The notes under the pieces were generated by a model that worked only from the letters and a program-made list of their open reading frames with translations, was not told the origin of the DNA and made no database searches. This document shows positions 2,761 through 26,803 of a stretch of DNA of 34,689 nucleotides, in pieces. Made by a program: the position numbers and the translations under genes. The stretch covers positions 1-34,689 of the forward strand of contig JABJGO010000061.1 of the NCBI GenBank assembly GCA_018662225.1, given 5' to 3'. Every line of letters begins with the position of its first letter. Position 1 is the first letter of the stretch. This stretch comes from Rhodospirillales bacterium (lineage in GTDB: Bacteria > Pseudomonadota > Alphaproteobacteria > Rhodospirillales > Casp-alpha2).

Positions 2761-5700
2761 GTGCCGAGTTTGATTCTTCGAACGGCTACAGGATTGGTTC
2801 AGGTACTGGCGGGATTGGCTGCCGGTTTTGTTATTGTCACGCTCGTCGCGGTGTGGATGTTGTCGCGCGGCCCGGTGTCATTGAGCTTTTTCGAAGGCCA
2901 TATGACCGAATTTCTGCACGAAGCATTCCCCACTGTAGAGATTGAATTCGACGATACGATTCTGGCCTGGGCGGGTTGGAATCGGGCCATTGATATTCGA
3001 ATTATCAATTTACGAATGGCGACTACGGATGGGAAAATGCGTGCCGAAATTCCATCGGCGTCAGTATCCATTAGCGCCCAGGCCCTGCTGCATGGTATCG
3101 CGGCACCCTCCCGGGTAGAGATGTTTGGCCCGACGATTTCCGTTTCGCTCCAGACATCGGGTGATTTTAACCTGGCCACGGCCAGTGTAGGCGCCGTTGT
3201 AACGGGACGCCTGGAGCCATACTTGCGCCAACTATCCACAAAGCCCGATCCATCCGACCCATTGGGCTATCTGAAGAAACTTACGATCAGTGATGCTGAT
3301 TTCATTGTTATCGACAAGACCAGAGAAATGTCATGGGTTACGCCGGATGCACAACTCAGCATTGTGCGCGATGGTCGCCGCATTGATGCCGACATTTCAT
3401 TCCTGGTGGATCTGACGGACACCGTTGCAGATGTTTCAATAGTCGGCAGCTACGACGACCTGACCGAGCGCGTGGACGCAGGCGTTTCCTTCAACAACTT
3501 TATCCCATCAGAAATCGCCACCACGATTCCTGAATTGAAGTTTCTTGAAGATATTCAGTTCCCCGTTCAAGGCACCTTAACCATCGCATCGTCCATTGAC
3601 GGTCAGGTAGATGGGGTTGGGGTCGATATAACAGGTGATTTCGGTCGTATTGCGCTACCCGCCTACCTCGGCGGTGACGTTACTGTGGACTCATTGGAGC
3701 TTCGCGGCCATTTCGATGCCTTGAGTAACCAAATCGAGATCGCAACGTTTGCAGCTCACCTGCCCGAAGGGTCGCACGTGCAGTTACCGGCGCCGGTCAA
3801 TCACACCATGCCACTGAGCTCGATCAAACTGTCAGGCATGTACGCTATAGAAAGCGACACGATTCAAATCCATCAACTGGATTTGGGGTTGAATGATGTG
3901 GCCGTGGCAATTGCCGGTACGGCGGCTTCTGTTTCAACGAAACCGGAAGTGGATATCCGAATTGATGTTCCTGGAATTGATTTGGAGCAGTTGGCCGTGT
4001 ACTGGCCTGCTACAATTTTGGAGGACGCTCGCACCTGGATAACGGGCTCTGTGCACACAGGCAAAATTGAAGATATCCGCGCTGATCTGAGAACGGCAAT
4101 TGACGAAGACGGGAATCTTCGGGTTGTTGATGCCCATGGGTCATACCAGTTATCGGATGTTTCCTTTAACTATGTGGATGCCATGCCGCCCATATCGGAC
4201 CTAGCAGCCTCTGTTCAGTTTAACTTAGATCGCATGGATTTCGATGTTTTGTCTGCCCATTCCGCCGGCATGACGATTGGCCAGGCGCGGGTCTCGTTGG
4301 TGGATATTTCCAGCCACAATGAAAAAGTCAGCATAAGAACGTCCCTCAACGGCAGCTTTGCTCATGCCATCGCTCTGGCCGATCGTGACCCCCTGGGCTT
4401 TGCCAAACAGGTCGGCATAGATGCTGAAAGTGTATCGGGCACAGCGGTCGTCGATCTGGCATTTGATTTCCCATTGTTGAAAGATCTTGAATGGGAGGAT
4501 GTTTCTGCATCCGCGACAGCCAATGCGTACTCGGTGAATATCCCACAAGGGTTGTTCGGGCTCGATATCTTTGGCGGCAATCTTGATATTGCCATTGATC
4601 GGGACGGCATGGATATCAATGGTGAGATGCTGTTGGAAGCATTTCCCACGGTTTTGGTCTGGCGGCAGAATTTTTCTGCCGATAAGCCTTTCAAAAATCG
4701 GTATGAGATTTCGACACACGTAACCGACGTCAAGGATGTAACGGATTTGGGGATCGATGTGAGCCCGTTTTCTGCCGATATGATCAAGGGTGCTGTGCCA
4801 CTGAGTTTACAGGTTACCGAGCAGTTCGATGGCACCTCTGTGCTTGAGGCAAACGCGGTTCTGGATTCTGTTGAGCTGGTTGCCAATGCGATCAATTGGC
4901 GCAAACCCATGGGTTCGTCAGGCAAGGCGCAGGTTACTATTGATCTGGTCAACGACCAGATATCGTCAATCCCGAAATTTGACGTGCAAACGGATGACCT
5001 GGTGGTTTCGGGAAGCGCGCTTTATGACGAACCCGGCGGCCGCCTCAGCCGTATCGACCTTGACCAGATCAAGTATGGTCGTAACGACATATCCGGACTC
5101 TTGGTGCCGGGCGGCGAGGGGGTATGGGATGCGGATTTCCGCGGTGCCAGTCTTGATCTGACCGACGTGTGGGATGAGGTTATCCATAGCGATTTGCTTA
5201 CATCAGGCGAGTCGTTCCTCGAAGATATCGGTGTGTCCGTTCAATTTGACCGCGTGTGGCTGTCTGAGGACCGTGGCGTCAACAATCTGACAGGCGCATT
5301 TGCTCGCGAGAGCGAATTGTGGGAGACGATCTACGTTACGGCAAATGTGGACAGTGGTGAATCGCTGGAAATCAAATTAACCCCGTCAGAAAAAAGCAAT
5401 GCCCGAATTCTAACGGTGTGGTCGCTTGATGCGGGTTCAGTTCTGCGAACGCTGGATATATACGATAATATGCTGGGGGGAGAGCTTTCCCTTAAAGGCC
5501 AATTCGATGACGCCCTTCCTGATCAGCCGTTACGGGGCGTTCTTGAGGTCCACGATTACCGAATTCTCAAGGCTCCAGCACTCGCCAAAGCCATCAGCAT
5601 TCTGGCGCTTACCGGCATATTGGACGCCTTGCAGGGCGAAGGCCTGGGGTTTGATCAACTGGTCCTGCCTTACCACTACGAAGACGGTATTTTGGAGCTT

Positions 5701-6045
5701 AAAGATGCCAAGGCGACCGGTGCGTCGCTTGGTTTTACGGCATCTGGCAAGGTTTATACCAATGCCAACGCTCTTGATATCGACGGCACCATCGTCCCGG
5801 TCTATGTGCTGAATTCGCTATTGGGGAATATTCCGATCATTGGAAATATTTTTTCAGGCGGCGAAGAGGGTGGCGGCTTGTTTGCGGCGAATTATTCCAT
5901 GACCGGTTCACGGGATGATCCGGATGTCAGTATCAATCCACTCAGCGTGCTCGCACCAGGTTTCCTTCGCAACATCTTTAGCTTAGGCGACGGCACCCAT
6001 TCAGGTGAACTGGAAGAACCTGACAATTCCCACAACGACCGTTAG
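2761..6045 (+). CDS. Large AsmA-like/DUF3971 inner-membrane-anchored envelope protein
   Basis: This 1094-residue protein has one N-terminal membrane segment (about residues 9-37) and a very long beta-rich periplasmic body, the build of the AsmA/YhdP/TamB-like family thought to bridge the envelope and move phospholipids. The C-terminal 180 residues hold the AsmA-like C-terminal region: LTGILDALQGEGL, HYEDGILELKDA, the VYVLNSLLGNIPIIGNIF stretch, and a closing DPDVSINPLSVLAPGFLRN. The assigned GTG start at 2761 lies only one base after GGAG (2756-2759). An in-frame TTG at 2770 has a more normal ten-base spacing and may be the true start. It is divergent from glnE and convergent with tyrS, with 13 bases between the stops. 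The family is clear; the exact substrate is not. Confidence 0.88.
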   Translation: MPSLILRTATGLVQVLAGLAAGFVIVTLVAVWMLSRGPVSLSFFEGHMTEFLHEAFPTVEIEFDDTILAWAGWNRAIDIRIINLRMATTDGKMRAEIPSASVSISAQALLHGIAAPSRVEMFGPTISVSLQTSGDFNLATASVGAVVTGRLEPYLRQLSTKPDPSDPLGYLKKLTISDADFIVIDKTREMSWVTPDAQLSIVRDGRRIDADISFLVDLTDTVADVSIVGSYDDLTERVDAGVSFNNFIPSEIATTIPELKFLEDIQFPVQGTLTIASSIDGQVDGVGVDITGDFGRIALPAYLGGDVTVDSLELRGHFDALSNQIEIATFAAHLPEGSHVQLPAPVNHTMPLSSIKLSGMYAIESDTIQIHQLDLGLNDVAVAIAGTAASVSTKPEVDIRIDVPGIDLEQLAVYWPATILEDARTWITGSVHTGKIEDIRADLRTAIDEDGNLRVVDAHGSYQLSDVSFNYVDAMPPISDLAASVQFNLDRMDFDVLSAHSAGMTIGQARVSLVDISSHNEKVSIRTSLNGSFAHAIALADRDPLGFAKQVGIDAESVSGTAVVDLAFDFPLLKDLEWEDVSASATANAYSVNIPQGLFGLDIFGGNLDIAIDRDGMDINGEMLLEAFPTVLVWRQNFSADKPFKNRYEISTHVTDVKDVTDLGIDVSPFSADMIKGAVPLSLQVTEQFDGTSVLEANAVLDSVELVANAINWRKPMGSSGKAQVTIDLVNDQISSIPKFDVQTDDLVVSGSALYDEPGGRLSRIDLDQIKYGRNDISGLLVPGGEGVWDADFRGASLDLTDVWDEVIHSDLLTSGESFLEDIGVSVQFDRVWLSEDRGVNNLTGAFARESELWETIYVTANVDSGESLEIKLTPSEKSNARILTVWSLDAGSVLRTLDIYDNMLGGELSLKGQFDDALPDQPLRGVLEVHDYRILKAPALAKAISILALTGILDALQGEGLGFDQLVLPYHYEDGILELKDAKATGASLGFTASGKVYTNANALDIDGTIVPVYVLNSLLGNIPIIGNIFSGGEEGGGLFAANYSMTGSRDDPDVSINPLSVLAPGFLRNIFSLGDGTHSGELEEPDNSHNDR

Positions 6046-6058
6046 CCCGTAGTGAGCG

Positions 6059-7312
6059 TTAAACTGATTTGATCAGGGCGTGGCGTTTCTTACCAGCAGA
6101 CAGCTTGATCACACCATTGGTATCCAGATCAGCACTGGTCACCGCCAGCGTTTCATCTTCGATACGCTGATCGTTGAGACGTGCGCCACCGCCTTTGATA
6201 AGGCGGCGTGCTTCACCATTTGAATTGGCAAGACCAGCCCGACAGAACAGGTCGTAGACGGGAATGCCCTGTTCCAGATCTGCTGACGCTACATCGGTAG
6301 ACGGCAGGTCTTCGGCCAGCGTACCTTCTTCAAAAGTCTTGCGTGCCGTTTCTGCGGCCTGATCGGCGGCATCCCGGCCGTGGCACAGGGTTGTAACCTC
6401 AGTAGCCAAAATTTTCTTGGCGTCGTTTAACTCAGCGCCTTCAAGCTTTTCCAATCGGGCAATTTCATCCAGCGGCATTTCCGTGAACAATCGCATCAAT
6501 CGACCAACATCGGCGTCTTCCGTGTTGCGCCAGTACTGCCAGTAATCGTAGGGCGACAGCATATCGGCGTTCAACCATACGGCCCCGTCGGCGGTCTTAC
6601 CCATTTTGGCGCCCGATGATGTGGTCAGCAGCGGTGTTGTTAATCCAAACAGGCTGAGATTATCACAGCGCCGACCAAGCTCGACCCCATTGACGATGTT
6701 GCCCCATTGGTCTGATCCACCCATTTGCAGGCTGCATCCATGGCGCCGACCTAATTCCAGAAAATCATAGGCTTGCAGAATCATGTAGTTGAATTCAAGG
6801 AACGACAGCGGCTGTTCCCGTTCCAGGCGCAGTTTCACGCTATCAAACGACATCATTCGATTGATGGAAAAATGCCGACCATAGTCACGCAGGAAAGGCA
6901 GGTATTGAAGGTCCTGCAACCAATCATCGTTGTTGACCATGACCGCGTCCGTGGGGCCATCACCAAACGTAAGATACTTGGCAAAGACCTGTTTGATGCC
7001 TGCCATATTGGTTTCAATGTTCTCATCACTGAGAACTTTGCGGGTGTCATCTTTGCCCGATGGGTCACCCACCTTGGTGGTGCCTGCGCCCATCAAAACG
7101 ATTGGTTTATGCCCGCTTTGCTGTAATTTTCTCAGCAACATGATGGGCAGCAAGCTACCCGCATGCAGGCTGGGTGCTGTGCAATCAAATCCGATATACG
7201 CTGTGACGACCTGGCTGGATGCCTGTGCGTCCAGTGCGTCCATGTCGGTGCACTGGTGCAGATAGCCCCGCTCGATGATGGTGTTGATAAAATCGGATTT
7301 GTATGTGGTCAT
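6059..7312 (-). CDS. tyrS: Tyrosyl-tRNA synthetase
   Basis: TyrS charges tRNA-Tyr with tyrosine. The 417-residue length is normal for the bacterial enzyme. Class I signatures are visible: HAGS at residues 50-53 in place of HIGH, and KMGKT at 236-240 in place of KMSKS. The tyrosine pocket includes [12 protein letters not shown] (about 176-187) and the GGSDQWGNI segment (198-206). An S4 RNA-binding domain closes the protein (about 350-413, with [16 protein letters not shown]). The gene is convergent with the AsmA-like gene and divergent from anmK, separated from it by 44 bases. The start ATG at 7312 gives the typical N-terminus; no strong ribosome binding site is seen in front of it. Confidence 0.97.
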
Positions 7313-19935: not shown

Positions 19936-20253
19936 ATGCCCAAAATCACTGTTATTACCCCGGACGAAAAACACCACGAGATCGAAGCCCCCGTTGGGCG
20001 CGCTTTGCTGACCGTATTGCGTGACCTGAACGGTTTCGATCTGGAAGGCACCTGCGAAGGCTCGCTGGCATGTGCCACCTGTCACGTGATCGTGGATGCG
20101 GCGTGGTATCCCAAACTAAAGCCCGTCGCCACCGGCGAACACGACATGCTCGATTTCGCCGAAGGCCTGACAGCCACATCCCGACTATGCTGCCAGATTC
20201 CTGTAACGGATGAACTGGATGGTCTGGTGGTGAGAATTCCGGCGGAAGGCTGA
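19936..20253 (+). CDS. Adrenodoxin-type [2Fe-2S] ferredoxin
   Basis: This 105-residue ferredoxin resembles the ISC ferredoxin (Fdx/FdxB) that supplies electrons for cluster assembly. Ligands are Cys40, Cys46 and Cys49 in GTCEGSLACATCHV and a fourth Cys at 86 (or the adjacent 85) in TSRLCCQIPV, the vertebrate/adrenodoxin-type spacing. EHDMLDFAEGLTATSRL matches the family. It is the last gene of the operon, 27 bases after sufA. No convincing rho-independent terminator follows; a run of nine G (20259-20267) stands just behind the stop. Confidence 0.93.
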   Translation: MPKITVITPDEKHHEIEAPVGRALLTVLRDLNGFDLEGTCEGSLACATCHVIVDAAWYPKLKPVATGEHDMLDFAEGLTATSRLCCQIPVTDELDGLVVRIPAEG

Positions 20254-20455: not shown

Positions 20456-21679
20456 CTACTCCTTCATGGCATCAATATCGATCTCAACCATCATCCCCGG
20501 ATAGGCAAGCTCGGGCAGGGGAACACCGGTGGAAGTCGGACCCGGATCGGTGAAATAAGATGACCTGATGGGTAGATTGGCGTTCAAGGCGTCTTCACCA
20601 CAGTCCCCATCGTAGAGCGTCAATACCTTCACAACATCGTCAAAATCAGCGCCGAATTCGCTCAGAATATTTCGTATATTCTCCATGCTCGATTTGGTTT
20701 GCTGGGTAAGCTGCCCGGGATCAATAGCGCAGCCCTTCTGATTAATGGATACCTGACCACCCAGAAAGATCATTTCACCGCACTTGAGACCATGTTTGTA
20801 GGGCAGGTGAACATGCCAGTCCCAGTGTCCTTCCGGCCATACATGCTCGCGCTTCAGATAGCTACCGTCTTCGCCCAGCATTGCGACGGTCTCGATTTTC
20901 ACACCCATGCCTTCCCAGGCGTGACGCGGAATCGGAATGCCGGTCGCGGCCGGTCCGGGTTCTTTGAAATGAGCAGCACAGGCAAGGGCGGCCGGTTCGA
21001 AATCCTCAATACCACCCTGACCGCCATACCATCGATTTATCTTCACAACATCGTCAAATCCGGCGCCGAAAGCATTGAGCGCCCGTCCGTGCTGGGCCAT
21101 CACCGTATTCGTTTGGGTGACAATGTCACCCGGGTCGATTATGACACCATTCACATCGCGTGGCGACTGGCCACTCATATAGATCATACGACCGCAACGC
21201 ACACCCTGGGCAAACGGTTCAGGCAGCGGCGACAAGCCATCAAGGGGAGCGTACTGGCGGGTCATCCGGGCATTGTCACGCCCCCGCATGGCGATGGCTT
21301 CAATTTCAACGCACATGCCTTCGTAGGCAAGATACGGAAAGGGGATCGCGGTCACGGCTGGGTGCGCGCCCGCAGGCAGGCCCGCAGCAACCATTTCCAG
21401 GAACTCGTCCTCATCACCGGTGCCATCATTTACATAAAAACAACGCAAGCGTACCAAGTCGACCAGATCGGCCCCCAGTTCTTCGAGTACGCGACCCAGA
21501 TAAGTCATCACTTCGGCGGTCTGCTGGCGAAGATCACCGAGATGGCGCACGACACCATGGGAAGTTAGGTCAACCTGACCACCTACATGAATTATTTCAC
21601 CGCACCTGAGGCCATGCTTATGCGTGATCGTAATTGGCCAGTTCCAGTGCCCTTCGGGCCAAGCATGTTGCTTTTTCAT
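20456..21679 (-). CDS. Single-chain protein of three Rid (YjgF/RidA-like) domains
   Basis: Rid proteins are normally about 130-residue homotrimers with active sites between subunits. This 407-residue protein contains three in tandem: about residues 5-132, 141-267 and 278-405. Domains 1 and 3 share an entry motif (WPEGHWxW, KHGLxCGExI, GGQV), while domain 2 starts differently (YAPLDGLSPLPEPF, RCGRMIYMSGQSP). Each ends with the family strand (VEIEAIAM, VKIETVAM, VEIDIDAM). The Arg required for imine hydrolysis in archetypal RidA (Arg105 in E. coli) is replaced in all three by Val, Ala or Ser, so classical 2-aminoacrylate deaminase activity is not expected. AGAGGA precedes the ATG. The gene stands alone, convergent with the suf operon. 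Confidence 0.88.
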   Translation of the reverse strand: MKKQHAWPEGHWNWPITITHKHGLRCGEIIHVGGQVDLTSHGVVRHLGDLRQQTAEVMTYLGRVLEELGADLVDLVRLRCFYVNDGTGDEDEFLEMVAAGLPAGAHPAVTAIPFPYLAYEGMCVEIEAIAMRGRDNARMTRQYAPLDGLSPLPEPFAQGVRCGRMIYMSGQSPRDVNGVIIDPGDIVTQTNTVMAQHGRALNAFGAGFDDVVKINRWYGGQGGIEDFEPAALACAAHFKEPGPAATGIPIPRHAWEGMGVKIETVAMLGEDGSYLKREHVWPEGHWDWHVHLPYKHGLKCGEMIFLGGQVSINQKGCAIDPGQLTQQTKSSMENIRNILSEFGADFDDVVKVLTLYDGDCGEDALNANLPIRSSYFTDPGPTSTGVPLPELAYPGMMVEIDIDAMKE

Positions 21680-22059: not shown

Positions 22060-23721
22060 ATGATTAGGCTCCGAGCCAAAACTAGAACGTTGCTGTCAAT
22101 CATCGTTCTGTTCATCATCGTCTCTGCTTGTGTTCCGGCAAAACAATATGCTCCCCTGCAATTGACGTCACTTAAAATGGGGCAGACCAGCAAGATAGAG
22201 CTCTACGGCAACGCTGGTTGGCGAGATACGGGCATCCAAATCAGTAAGGGACAGGTCTATCGCGTCAACGCCAACGGAGCCTGGAGCATGTCACCATTCT
22301 GTGGATCGACTGACAGTGAAGGGCTGGCGATTGAGCATCTAACTTGCATGAAAGGTATCTTTGCACAGAGCTTTCCTTTACCGGAAGGTAGGATCGGTGC
22401 ATTGGTTGGCAAGATTGGTCAAAACGGCAAGGTCTTCCTAATCGGCGGGACAGAAGGGTTTATTGCTGACAGGGAAGGTATCCTGTTTCTTAGAAATAAT
22501 GATCCTGACGGGTTCCTCTTTGACAACGAGGGTCAGATCGATGTCGCTATCCAACGCTATGGCGGTGGCGAAGGTGGGGCAACTGCGACGGCTTCCGGGT
22601 TGAAAAAAACAGGCCAGCCGGCCAAGGCCGACATCGACTACATTTTTGCCAATCACCTTACCCTTGATTTCGATGATGGTGGGGCATCGATGTCAGGAGA
22701 GTGGACGGAAGATGAGAAACTTAAAGTTGCGCGCTATTTCGAAATGGCCACCCAGGATGCACCAGATATTACTACCCTTCTCGGTATGGGCAGTGAGACT
22801 CATGGCCCAATTCGAGTGATCAAGCGCGATGCGGTAAAGTGGTCCCTTGGGCTGGTCAAGCGAAGCAAGGATCACTTGACTCATTATCTTGTCCTGAACG
22901 AGCATTTTTTTGATGCCTACGACACACCCGGAGCCGTTGTTGTCGGGGACGCCATCATTTACAGTTATTGGTTCTTCATCCACGAACTGGTTCATTTGGC
23001 CGAGTTGCGTTCAACTCCCATTGCCGTGTTCTCGCCGTCACTCAATCTTGTCGGTCCGGTCGGGCCCGCACTTGTCGGGAAAATAGAAGAAGCTAAAAAA
23101 TTACTGGAAGCGCGGGGAATAGACTATGACGAGTATGTTTTGTCGACCGAAGAGAGCAACCTGGATTTGGTTCACAGCATTGGACTTCCCTCCAAGTACG
23201 CAATCCGAGAGCCGCAGGAAACATTGGCCGAGGTCGTGACCGCGATGATTCTTGCACCGTCCTATCAACCGACGCAGGATGTACGCGATATCATCGACCA
23301 CTTTTTCCACCGCTCAATGGATGGTGTCGGACAAGCGTACGCTAGCGAGCCATGCAGGGCCTTAGGTGATGCAGCATCCAAGGGTGATACAGGTAAAATG
23401 TCAGCACTGATTAACTCCGGTATTAACGTAAACTGCACCTATACGGGAAGTTATGTAAGTGATGAAGGCGGCAAGACCATTAGCTATAGTACGACGCCGC
23501 TGAATGAGGCTGCATATCTTGCTCGCGTTGTCCCCGTAAAGCTTTTGCTCAGCCACGGCGCGAATGTGAACTATGCGGACGCCGAAGGGTATAAACCGCT
23601 CGATGCGGTGAGTTACGCCCTTGACGATATGGTTCTTTATGAAGACACCACCCCTCAAGAGTGGGAAGAAGGTGAAGCGGTGTTTCAGCTTTTGGAGGAT
23701 GCTGGTGCGACCTACAAATAG
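22060..23721 (+). CDS. Lipoprotein with LecA-like domain, HExxH zincin domain and ankyrin-like repeats
   Basis: I do not know a named family for this whole 553-residue protein. Residues 1-24 are a lipoprotein signal (LLSIIVLFIIVSAC, lipidation at Cys24). Residues about 43-166 resemble the PA-IL/LecA-like domain: W54-DTGI, KGQVYRVNANGAW, GALVGKIGQNGKVFLIG, GILFLRNND and DNEGQIDVAI. Residues about 190-420 form a probable zinc metallopeptidase with H308-E-L-V-H312 and a downstream SKYAIREPQETLAEVV (378-393) giving a likely third glutamate ligand. Residues about 432-552 read as two or three ankyrin-like repeats (LGDAASKGDTGKMSALINSG, TPLNEAAYLARVVPVKLLLS). ATG 22060 was chosen over the TTG at 22039 because AAGGA lies upstream and the signal peptide then starts cleanly. 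Each domain call is by motif; the combination is inference. Confidence 0.75.
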   Translation: MIRLRAKTRTLLSIIVLFIIVSACVPAKQYAPLQLTSLKMGQTSKIELYGNAGWRDTGIQISKGQVYRVNANGAWSMSPFCGSTDSEGLAIEHLTCMKGIFAQSFPLPEGRIGALVGKIGQNGKVFLIGGTEGFIADREGILFLRNNDPDGFLFDNEGQIDVAIQRYGGGEGGATATASGLKKTGQPAKADIDYIFANHLTLDFDDGGASMSGEWTEDEKLKVARYFEMATQDAPDITTLLGMGSETHGPIRVIKRDAVKWSLGLVKRSKDHLTHYLVLNEHFFDAYDTPGAVVVGDAIIYSYWFFIHELVHLAELRSTPIAVFSPSLNLVGPVGPALVGKIEEAKKLLEARGIDYDEYVLSTEESNLDLVHSIGLPSKYAIREPQETLAEVVTAMILAPSYQPTQDVRDIIDHFFHRSMDGVGQAYASEPCRALGDAASKGDTGKMSALINSGINVNCTYTGSYVSDEGGKTISYSTTPLNEAAYLARVVPVKLLLSHGANVNYADAEGYKPLDAVSYALDDMVLYEDTTPQEWEEGEAVFQLLEDAGATYK

Positions 23722-23769: not shown

Positions 23770-23846
23770 AATGTCTGCTCTGGGGCATTAGGAGAAGTAT
23801 TGGCAGGCCATGATTCACGTCCGCTCTGCGGCACAATCCGGACATT
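23770..23846. repeat. Cluster of the recurring intergenic motif (AATGTCYGCT / CCGGACATT)
   Basis: Between the convergent lipoprotein gene and the Glu-Pro-rich gene are AATGTCTGCT (23770-23779), CACGTCCGCT (23817-23826) and CCGGACATT (23838-23846), the last in inverted orientation. A partial copy, AATGTCTAC, follows near 23860. Related decamers occur in four other gaps of the window. The cluster looks like remnants of a dispersed non-coding element. Confidence 0.4.
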
Positions 23847-23908
23847 GTCTGTGGTACTGAATGTCTACAGCAAATGCACACTTTCGTTGCCGGTCAGCGG
23901 CATTCTGC

Positions 23909-25402: not shown

Positions 25403-25921
25403 CTAATCTTGTGCTGCCATGTGGCAGATGAATTCTTCCAACTTACCGCCAGCATCTTGGGCAATAGCATCCACATAGTCCAGTTTCAAAGACATGTTTT
25501 CGGTGCCACCTGTGAGATTTAACCGCGTCAGCAAATGACCACGCAACGCCGTTTCCTCTTTATCAGTGAGGGGCCGTTCTACAACCAGTTGCACGTGGAA
25601 TTCCGTAATGGATTTCTGAATGATCTGATGCTGAATAACCGGGGCCAGGCCGCGTAAACCCTGCGTGCTAATGGACATCCACACGCGATTGCCGCCCGGC
25701 ATCACCATCTGGTTCTGTGAACGGCCCAGAATACGTTTGAGTGTGGGAAGTCCACGGCCACAGGTGCACGGTTCACCCACCTCGGCGAAATCATCCAGCG
25801 TGTACCGTAGCAGTGGCGTGATGAAGTTATGCAGCGGCGTTACCACAATCCGGCCAATCTCACCCGGTTTACAGGCCTCATCATCATCGTTCAAGATCTC
25901 CACGTAGGCGCTCTCAGTCAT
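25403..25921 (-). pseudogene. C-terminal part of interrupted PaaK-like (AMP-forming) ligase
   Basis: This stretch continues the ligase that starts at 26803, in the same reading frame, after an in-frame TAG at 25955-25957. It carries the family's C-terminal elements: YVEILNDDDEACKPGEIGR, VVTPLHNFITPLLRY, the DFAEVGEPCTCGRGLPTLKR segment and an ACT-like closing domain. An ATG at 25921 could allow separate translation of 172 residues, but no good ribosome binding site is seen and the fragment lacks the nucleotide loop. Between the TAG and this ATG the codons still read CPKQEHDHYHI, which matches the family, so nothing has been inserted or lost. A 15-base gap separates it from the Glu-Pro-rich gene. 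Confidence 0.8.
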
Positions 25922-25954
25922 GATGTGGTAGTGATCATGTTCTTGTTTTGGGCA

Positions 25955-26803
25955 CTACAAAGCCAGAATACCCGCTTCCTGTGTACCGTAGACATCCTGA
26001 ATGGGAAGGCCAAAGACATCCTGGGCAATTAGTCGGGTGTTGTTCGTCAACGGCTCGCCCGTGGTCTGAATGGCGCGCAGGTGGGGTAGTGGGGCACCGT
26101 CGCGTTTACTGAAATAGGCAAGCTGGCGCAGGTTTGATGGATGTGTGACGAGCAACTGTGACTGGTTTTCCACCAACCATTCGAGCTGGGATTGTGGCGG
26201 TACAGCCACATCGAAGTACTTGACCGGACCGCTTACCCATCCTGTCATCCAGCTATTGAAAACATCGGCATCGGCCTGTTCCAATTGGGCAGAATTCATG
26301 CGAACGATATTGGCCACGCTGTATTCGGGATCGTATCCGTGCCAAACACCATTGCGTACCATATTGGCGTGGTCATGCAGGCTCGATACGTTCGCCGCCT
26401 TTAAGGTAACAGGATCGCCCGTAATGCCGGGCGTCCGCACGGTATGGATGGCACCATGGGATTTAGGTGGTGCGGTGGATTCCAGTTCTGCACCATGAGC
26501 CAGGACATCTGCGCGGCTCAAAACGGGGATTCTAGCCCAGAGTTCTGCCGTTAATTTAGTGCCGGTGCCAATACCGGGCATGTCCGTGGCGAGGTGTGCT
26601 TGATAATAGGGCACGGTTTTCAGGCAGTGGGATAGTAAAGCCGTCAGTTGTGCGAACTGTCGCACGTGCAGGTCCTCAGCAGATAAATTCTGCGTGCGTT
26701 GGAACTGGTTCATGAGGATCAGGACAGGCGCCTCATTCGGCACGGGCACACGGGGCCAGCGCAGCAGATTGTCACGGGAATGGATGGTTAAGGGGGCTGG
26801 CAT
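25955..26803 (-). pseudogene. N-terminal part of interrupted PaaK-like (AMP-forming) ligase
   Basis: PaaK-type enzymes join an aryl or acyl acid to CoA through an adenylate. This 282-residue part has the family N-terminus (LTALLSHCLKTVPYYQAHLA, IPVLSRADV) and the YGTQEAG motif just before the break. It then stops at TAG (25955-25957) in the context IAL-stop-CPKQEHDHYH, where relatives have a Gln codon, so a single CAG to TAG change explains the break. The usual TSGSTG nucleotide loop reads TPGITG (124-129), losing two hydroxyl residues. Both changes suggest a decaying gene, although a sequencing error at the amber codon is possible. It starts 17 bases after the EamA gene. Confidence 0.82.

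Follow-up and report, generated by a model that had tools for sequence, protein, structure and literature searches.

The gene at positions 22060 to 23721 on the plus strand of the window, by which we mean the whole stretch of 34,689 nucleotides analysed here, encodes a protein of 553 amino acids in which a lipoprotein signal peptide is followed by a LecA-like head, a zincin-like module and an ankyrin module. The combination is real and unusual: the lectin fold is known, the zincin-like family is undescribed, the ankyrin is of an exported type, and the whole is a single case. In the explanation that we consider best, to which we assign a probability of about one half, the protein sits in the outer membrane as a lipoprotein on the periplasmic side, its middle part is a zinc metallopeptidase domain from a family without earlier description, and its ankyrin module docks substrates or partners.

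The gene starts with ATG (an in-frame TTG lies 21 bases upstream), and translation of 22060-23718 gave 553 codons without a stop. A genome search found it in single copy in its own genome of 3.5 Mb and 103 contigs. Third-position G+C is 0.54, 0.56 and 0.51 across the three modules, which are broadly similar by codon position, and lies a little below the 0.57-0.64 of four neighbour genes. The sequence-only reading of this DNA had placed a signal peptide with Cys24, a LecA-like domain, a HELVH motif and an ankyrin-like domain in one gene, and the intact single frame bears this out. Its LecA-like and ankyrin domains found support in profiles and its lipoprotein signal stood as well, whereas the zincin part rests on motif conservation and a weak alignment with MtfA.

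The upstream genes, up to position 20253, resemble by reading a suf iron-sulfur cluster. The RidA-like gene that directly precedes, on the minus strand at 20456-21679, encodes by reading a protein of 407 residues with three tandem RidA/YjgF-like repeats and is separated from the start at 22060 by a gap of 380 bases. The next genes downstream also lie on the minus strand. The flanks comprise, by reading, suf, RidA-like, EamA-like transporter, tRNA thiouridylase-like and GMP synthase-like genes, and because the gene of interest stands alone on its strand between them, the genes around it offer no clue to its function. In the window, Rfam gave no match at gathering scores, and no tRNA was found. 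The downstream order of g23909, an AMP-binding-like, an EamA-like and a DUF983-like gene is common to a genome of the same genus (G385), the contig of which ends inside g23909. The AMP-binding/CoA-ligase-like gene (25403-26803, minus strand) contains one in-frame stop at a position where G385 reads through. The spacer downstream of the gene of interest, at 23770-23857, matches other places of its genome on contig 82 (92% over 64 bases) and contig 49 (78% over 85 bases) and is perhaps a dispersed repeat.

A hydrophobic stretch leading into VSAC at residues 21-24 forms the predicted lipoprotein signal peptide (22060-22131, plus strand; lipobox VSA-C with Cys24 at 22129-22131). Reading and hydropathy both agree with the signal peptide and Cys24 proposed before. 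The residue after the lipobox cysteine governs the membrane sorting of lipoproteins (the +2 rule); here it is valine, so that outer-membrane sorting is to be expected, and the residue suggests the outer membrane as the location of the protein. Besides C24, the only cysteines are C81, C96, C432 and C459.

The LecA/PA-IL-like domain was delimited to about residues 37-170 (22168-22569, plus strand) with an alignment of 11 rows, a profile comparison with the PDB, and Pfam. Pfam PA-IL (PF07828) matched the full-length protein below threshold (E 0.089) and residues 1-187 with E 0.011 and 16.2 bits against a cut-off of 22.5, and seven of the 11 members of the head profile matched it at E <=1, the best with 1.4e-7. 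When the profile of 11 relatives was compared with the PDB, PllA (E 1.4e-6) and LecA (E 2.6e-6) aligned along the domain; the top match, 8prj (E 7.1e-10), was set aside as the sum of eight weak stretches. A structure model of the domain calculated with one relative reached a pLDDT of 34.4 and was unusable. At the level of sequence, the resemblance to the LecA fold that had been claimed for the first domain is supported by the comparison with PllA and LecA, and residues ~37-170 are, on this evidence, homologous to LecA lectins.

A calcium loop with D148, D155 and N156 is predicted at 22501-22527 (plus strand) from the alignment and from a ligand spacing as in EclA. D148 is present in 10 of the 11 head rows, D or N at 155 and N156 in all 11, and the loop is shorter in at least two of the rows; Cys81 and Cys96 are each found in 10 of 11. 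According to the consulted part of the EclA paper, the calcium of that protein is coordinated by D114, D121 and N122 through their side chains and by two main-chain oxygens (PMC11875179), and the spacing of these ligands (0, +7, +8) equals that of D148, D155 and N156. The same source describes EclA as a LecA homologue that kept calcium and did not keep the galactose contacts (PMC11875179), a precedent, within that portion of the paper, for the galactose contacts vanishing while the calcium site stays, and one that weighs on the earlier suggestion of a protease directed by sugar.

The zincin-like module covers about residues 192-425 (22633-23334, plus strand), as defined by searches and alignment, and is below all Pfam cut-offs. 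HELVH lies at residues 308-312 (22981-22995, plus strand; H308, E309, H312) and ETLAE at 387-391 (23218-23232, plus strand), where the alignment and a comparison with MtfA point to E387 as candidate third zinc ligand and E391 as the alternative. When the whole protein was shuffled 20,000 times, an HExxH motif occurred by chance in 1.5% of the shuffles. Taken alone the motif would be moderate evidence for a zincin; its alignment with HExxH in three of six distant relatives adds to its weight.

These relatives were collected from genome draws that overlap. A domain-only search of 385 genomes of the class gave 11 genomes at E <=0.1. Apart from the source genome these were G383 and G114 (both about 2e-5), G336 (0.0028) and seven more, of which five (L024-L027, L030) were judged to be chance matches after reading of their ORFs, while G001 and G175 (L028, L029) were excluded from the count of relatives. 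Profile searches added G217 (five genomes searched) as well as G811 and G808 (199 genomes of the order). Nothing was added in ten genomes of the family of G336, which also form its order; 398 genomes of the phylum yielded chance matches only (L037, L038, ORFs read), 318 genomes of the class only G114, G217 and the source genome, and viral contigs no relative with a profile of four sequences. A further profile match (L061) was set aside as chance after ORF reading. The six relatives share 16-23% identity with the module of the 553-residue protein, and no close homologue was found in these searches.

HExxH is intact in G336 (HEIAH), G808 (HEMVH) and G811 (HELTH) and lost in G383 and G114 (both RDVAH) and G217 (RALAH). 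Glutamate occupies position 387 in five of six relatives (Gly in G808) and position 391 likewise in five of six (Gln in G217). The conservation of H308, E309, H312 and a third ligand had been named earlier as a check; HExxH was found in half of these proteins, and Glu 387 and Glu 391 are each frequent and neither is invariant. Loss of HExxH in close homologues had been named as counting against a zincin; it was seen in three of six relatives, all of them distant. Since HExxH is kept in three and lost in three, protease activity appears plausible for the 553-residue protein and is not a constant of the family. By reading, the relatives carry export signals, with a lipobox in G336. TPR tails follow the module in five of six (by Pfam in G336, G383 and G808, by reading in G114 and G217), and the G811 gene has one in-frame TGA within the domain, its protein ending soon after the module. 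Among the seven proteins with the zincin-like module, only the 553-residue protein has a LecA-like head and an ankyrin tail. Three zincin-TPR relatives (L010, L012, L041) lack HExxH and keep the remaining module, possibly a series from enzyme to scaffold.

No Pfam family was matched at cut-off by any of the seven members, scanned at E up to 10. Below threshold, M35 (best E 0.006) and eCIS_core were each matched by two of seven, and YfjL_C, DUF6782, M48, Mx1 and YgjP-like by one each; such matches of single members are mostly to metallopeptidase families (M35, Mx1, M48, DUF6782, YgjP-like). MtfA, a zincin of family M90, is cytosolic, and its family is present in Pfam-A; it was listed for none of the seven members at E up to 10. 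In a profile comparison with E. coli MtfA (hhalign), HExxH and a later helix with YA...P.E..A were aligned with a score of 30.3 and a probability of only 22%. In a shuffle control run for MtfA alone, a score of 30.3 was reached by one of 100 shuffles in which the HExxH core was preserved. E387 is aligned to the Glu within ECFA of MtfA and for this reason is the likelier third zinc ligand compared with E391, as a lead and not an assignment; the glycine at 387 in G808, where HExxH is intact, speaks against E387. Membership in M48 was rejected, since the profile likeness is centred on HExxH and the probabilities are low (few sequences, low power): three E. coli M48 proteins taken as one set aligned over 38 columns around HExxH only, with 18.5% probability, and singly BepA, LoiP and HtpX scored 25.1, 22.6 and 27.7, HtpX over 69 columns, with probabilities of 2.9-10.9%. 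The Pfam M48 match in one of seven members had an E-value of 0.17 only.

Profile searches of the PDB gave no credible relative of the zincin-like module. The designed helical repeat 5cwd (E 1.3e-4, 3.4e-5 and 5e-6) was rejected as a sum of weak repeated stretches up to the third-ligand helix that leave the HExxH region uncovered, and 4jiu (proabylysin, E 0.96) and 2cjj (E 0.9) were not listed again with more sequences. A single-sequence model of residues 185-432 had a pLDDT of 35.8 and was unusable. Because both structure models were unusable, the zincin reading rests on the motif and a weak alignment and not on a fold. The earlier interpretation of HELVH and a downstream helix as a zincin draws on the aligned motif in three of six relatives and the weak MtfA alignment, and found no Pfam match at cut-off and no credible match in the PDB.

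For the ankyrin module (about residues 428-553; 23341-23718, plus strand), Pfam, phmmer and alignment were used. Two Pfam families were listed, Ank_2 with E 8.3e-5 and Ank with E 0.0012, neither of which reached its curated cut-off. The phmmer matches included designed ankyrins, with E-values down to 1.6e-17, and a natural ankyrin, tankyrase-1 (1.7e-11). Five relatives are above the Pfam cut-off. The aligned relatives are of small size and, by reading, carry export signals; G059 has three copies (37-48% identity), and G016 (34%) and G097 (27%) have one each. The equivalents of C432 (23353-23355) and C459 (23434-23436) are invariant in all six rows of the alignment, from which the matches in G261, G346, G061 and G006 were excluded, and the pair is as expected of a putative disulfide in an exported protein. 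The ankyrin-like repeats with cysteines noted earlier in the third domain were in this way recovered. PADLOC gave a weak match on the ankyrin part only, and both NCBIfam matches were on the ankyrin part as well, far below cut-offs.

The three-part combination was not found beyond the source genome among 384 other genomes and 40 others, in which more than one module was never matched in one place. Plasmids gave no match with the 553-residue protein, the zincin-like module of a relative or the LecA-like head of a relative. G385, from the same genus and 89% complete, had no match to the 553-residue protein either, which indicates that, in the sample searched, conservation of the gene does not extend across its genus. 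Among the matches listed in literature searches, none described a LecA-like domain joined to a metallopeptidase or to ankyrin, a result that is not proof of absence, and queries for the architecture of PA-IL-like domains or for PA-IL with a caspase domain had no match. In the main text of PMC3501461, the terms lectin, PA-IL and LecA are absent. The earlier remark that no family with this build has been described is in agreement with the Pfam, NCBIfam, PADLOC and literature searches.

LecA-like heads are also found in front of other tails. A survey of 199 genomes of the sampled order with the head profile matched 15, including the source genome. Caspase (C14) tails were identified by Pfam in G423, G424, G847 and G829 of the order and, outside the order survey, in G287 and G211, six genomes in total. 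PDZ-region tails in the order occur in G812 (above the Pfam cut-off) and G871 (below), and G864, the head protein of which is identical to L002 over 600 residues compared, was counted with them; the PDZ of a further such tail, in G397, is below the Pfam cut-off. The proteins with a PDZ-containing region (L002, positions 3305-6685; L044; L048; L031) are large lipoproteins of ~1,100 residues where complete. FGE-sulfatase is joined to two LecA-like domains in G091. Heads stand alone in G014 and G404 (195 residues), which like G091 and G397 come from other searches; within the order survey, the G914 head belongs to a frame that runs off the stored stretch, and the G398 head is a fragment of 86 residues. 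The closest heads are those of G397 (66% identity) and G404 (54%), from the same family as the source genome, and neither has a zincin-like module. At the C-terminus, LecA-like domains were found by Pfam on Tle1-like catalytic proteins in G417, G870, G858, G862 and G806 of the order survey, and outside it a Tle1-like protein with such a domain is present in G164. These proteins from six genomes (L051, L053, L054, L055, L056, L014) match PF09994, which is named for T6SS phospholipase effectors.

We tentatively propose, as a possibility that falls well short of even odds, that the LecA-like lipoprotein head is a general, calcium-bound platform for targeting to the envelope, with caspase-like, PDZ-containing or zincin and ankyrin tails swapped behind it for delivery or sensing in envelope proteolysis. 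The occurrence of the head with several different tails is a more general point than the single-case combination. If the head were a shared targeting module, a lectin fold that is mostly known as secreted or soluble would gain a second career in the envelope, attached to proteases.

The preferred reading of a periplasmic metallopeptidase has to be weighed against others. The middle domain could be a scaffold with a zincin fold that works by binding and has no protease activity. The loss of HExxH in half of the relatives and the glycine at 387 in G808 favour this, and since the module is otherwise kept in the relatives without HExxH, the fold has a use without catalysis; the 553-residue protein, however, possesses the two histidines as well as E309, E387 and E391, and we regard a pure scaffold as rather unlikely. 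The motif could also be coincidental and the middle domain no zincin at all, as the 1.5% chance in shuffles, the lack of a Pfam match at cut-off or a credible PDB match and the unusable model would allow. Against a coincidence stands its alignment in three of six relatives at about 20% identity, where a helix follows with Glu 391 in all three and Glu 387 in two of three, and this possibility is strongly disfavoured.

Another explanation places the head on the outside, making the protein a protease, displayed on the surface or released, that targets glycans of neighbour or host cells. It would accord with the extracellular sugars bound by LecA relatives, with the conserved calcium ligands and with the C-terminal LecA-like domains of the Tle1-like proteins. 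However, no secretion gene or toxin-like neighbour is among the listed ORFs of the window, named by reading, and ankyrin and TPR tails would fit a periplasmic partner better; an outward-facing protease is decidedly unlikely. Finally, the combination could have arisen through faulty assembly, or it could be a recent fusion that has no settled function, given that it was seen in one draft assembly of 103 contigs and nowhere else in the genomes searched. We hold this to be very improbable: one unbroken frame of similar G+C by codon position runs through the three modules, the downstream gene order is shared with the same genus, and an accident would require two in-frame assembly joints.

For the periplasmic metallopeptidase we arrive at the following model, in which we infer zinc binding, proteolysis, the disulfide, the side of the outer membrane and the ligands of head and tail. 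The lipid on Cys24 would anchor the protein in the outer membrane, facing the periplasm. The head would form a beta-sandwich stabilised by calcium, and its ligand, either a glycan of the envelope or a partner, need not be galactose. Envelope proteins would be cut by the zincin, with H308, H312 and E387 (or E391) holding the zinc and E309 acting as the base, and the ankyrin module, stapled by a disulfide between C432 and C459, would dock substrates or partners in the manner of TPR in BepA. The zincin-like module would then represent a new family of peptidases, in which some members look active and others degenerate. Such a family could help in studying how proteases of the periplasm become scaffolds that resemble chaperones, a subject connected with the two roles of BepA, as protease and in assembly.

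Several known systems resemble parts of the protein. MtfA is similar through the weak alignment of HExxH and the third-ligand helix including YA...P.E..A, at a probability of 22% only, whereas it is cytosolic and has neither head nor ankyrin module. The small exported ankyrin proteins of G059, G016 and G097 share 27-48% identity and the same invariant cysteine pair with residues 428-553, yet they stand alone, while the ankyrin of the 553-residue protein is the tail of a multi-domain lipoprotein. The LecA-like lipoproteins with Peptidase_C14 tails (six genomes) or a PDZ-containing region have lipobox and head in common with it and differ in the tail. LecA, PllA and the N-terminal domain of EclA (PF07828) resemble the head by the profile match along the domain and the calcium ligands D, D and N, as far as the consulted part of PMC11875179 describes the latter; in contrast to them, the head is lipid-anchored by prediction, belongs to a multi-domain protein and has two conserved cysteines. 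In the portion of PMC8423444 consulted, BepA is described as a periplasmic M48 protease, the TPR domain of which makes contact with LptD and with the BAM complex. The likeness to BepA, within the limits of that source, lies in an exported HExxH domain with a repeat domain for protein binding behind it, and the relatives of the zincin-like module themselves carry TPR. In the 553-residue protein, ankyrin replaces TPR, a LecA-like head and a lipid anchor are added, and the zincin-like module does not belong to M48 by profile (18.5%, HExxH region only).
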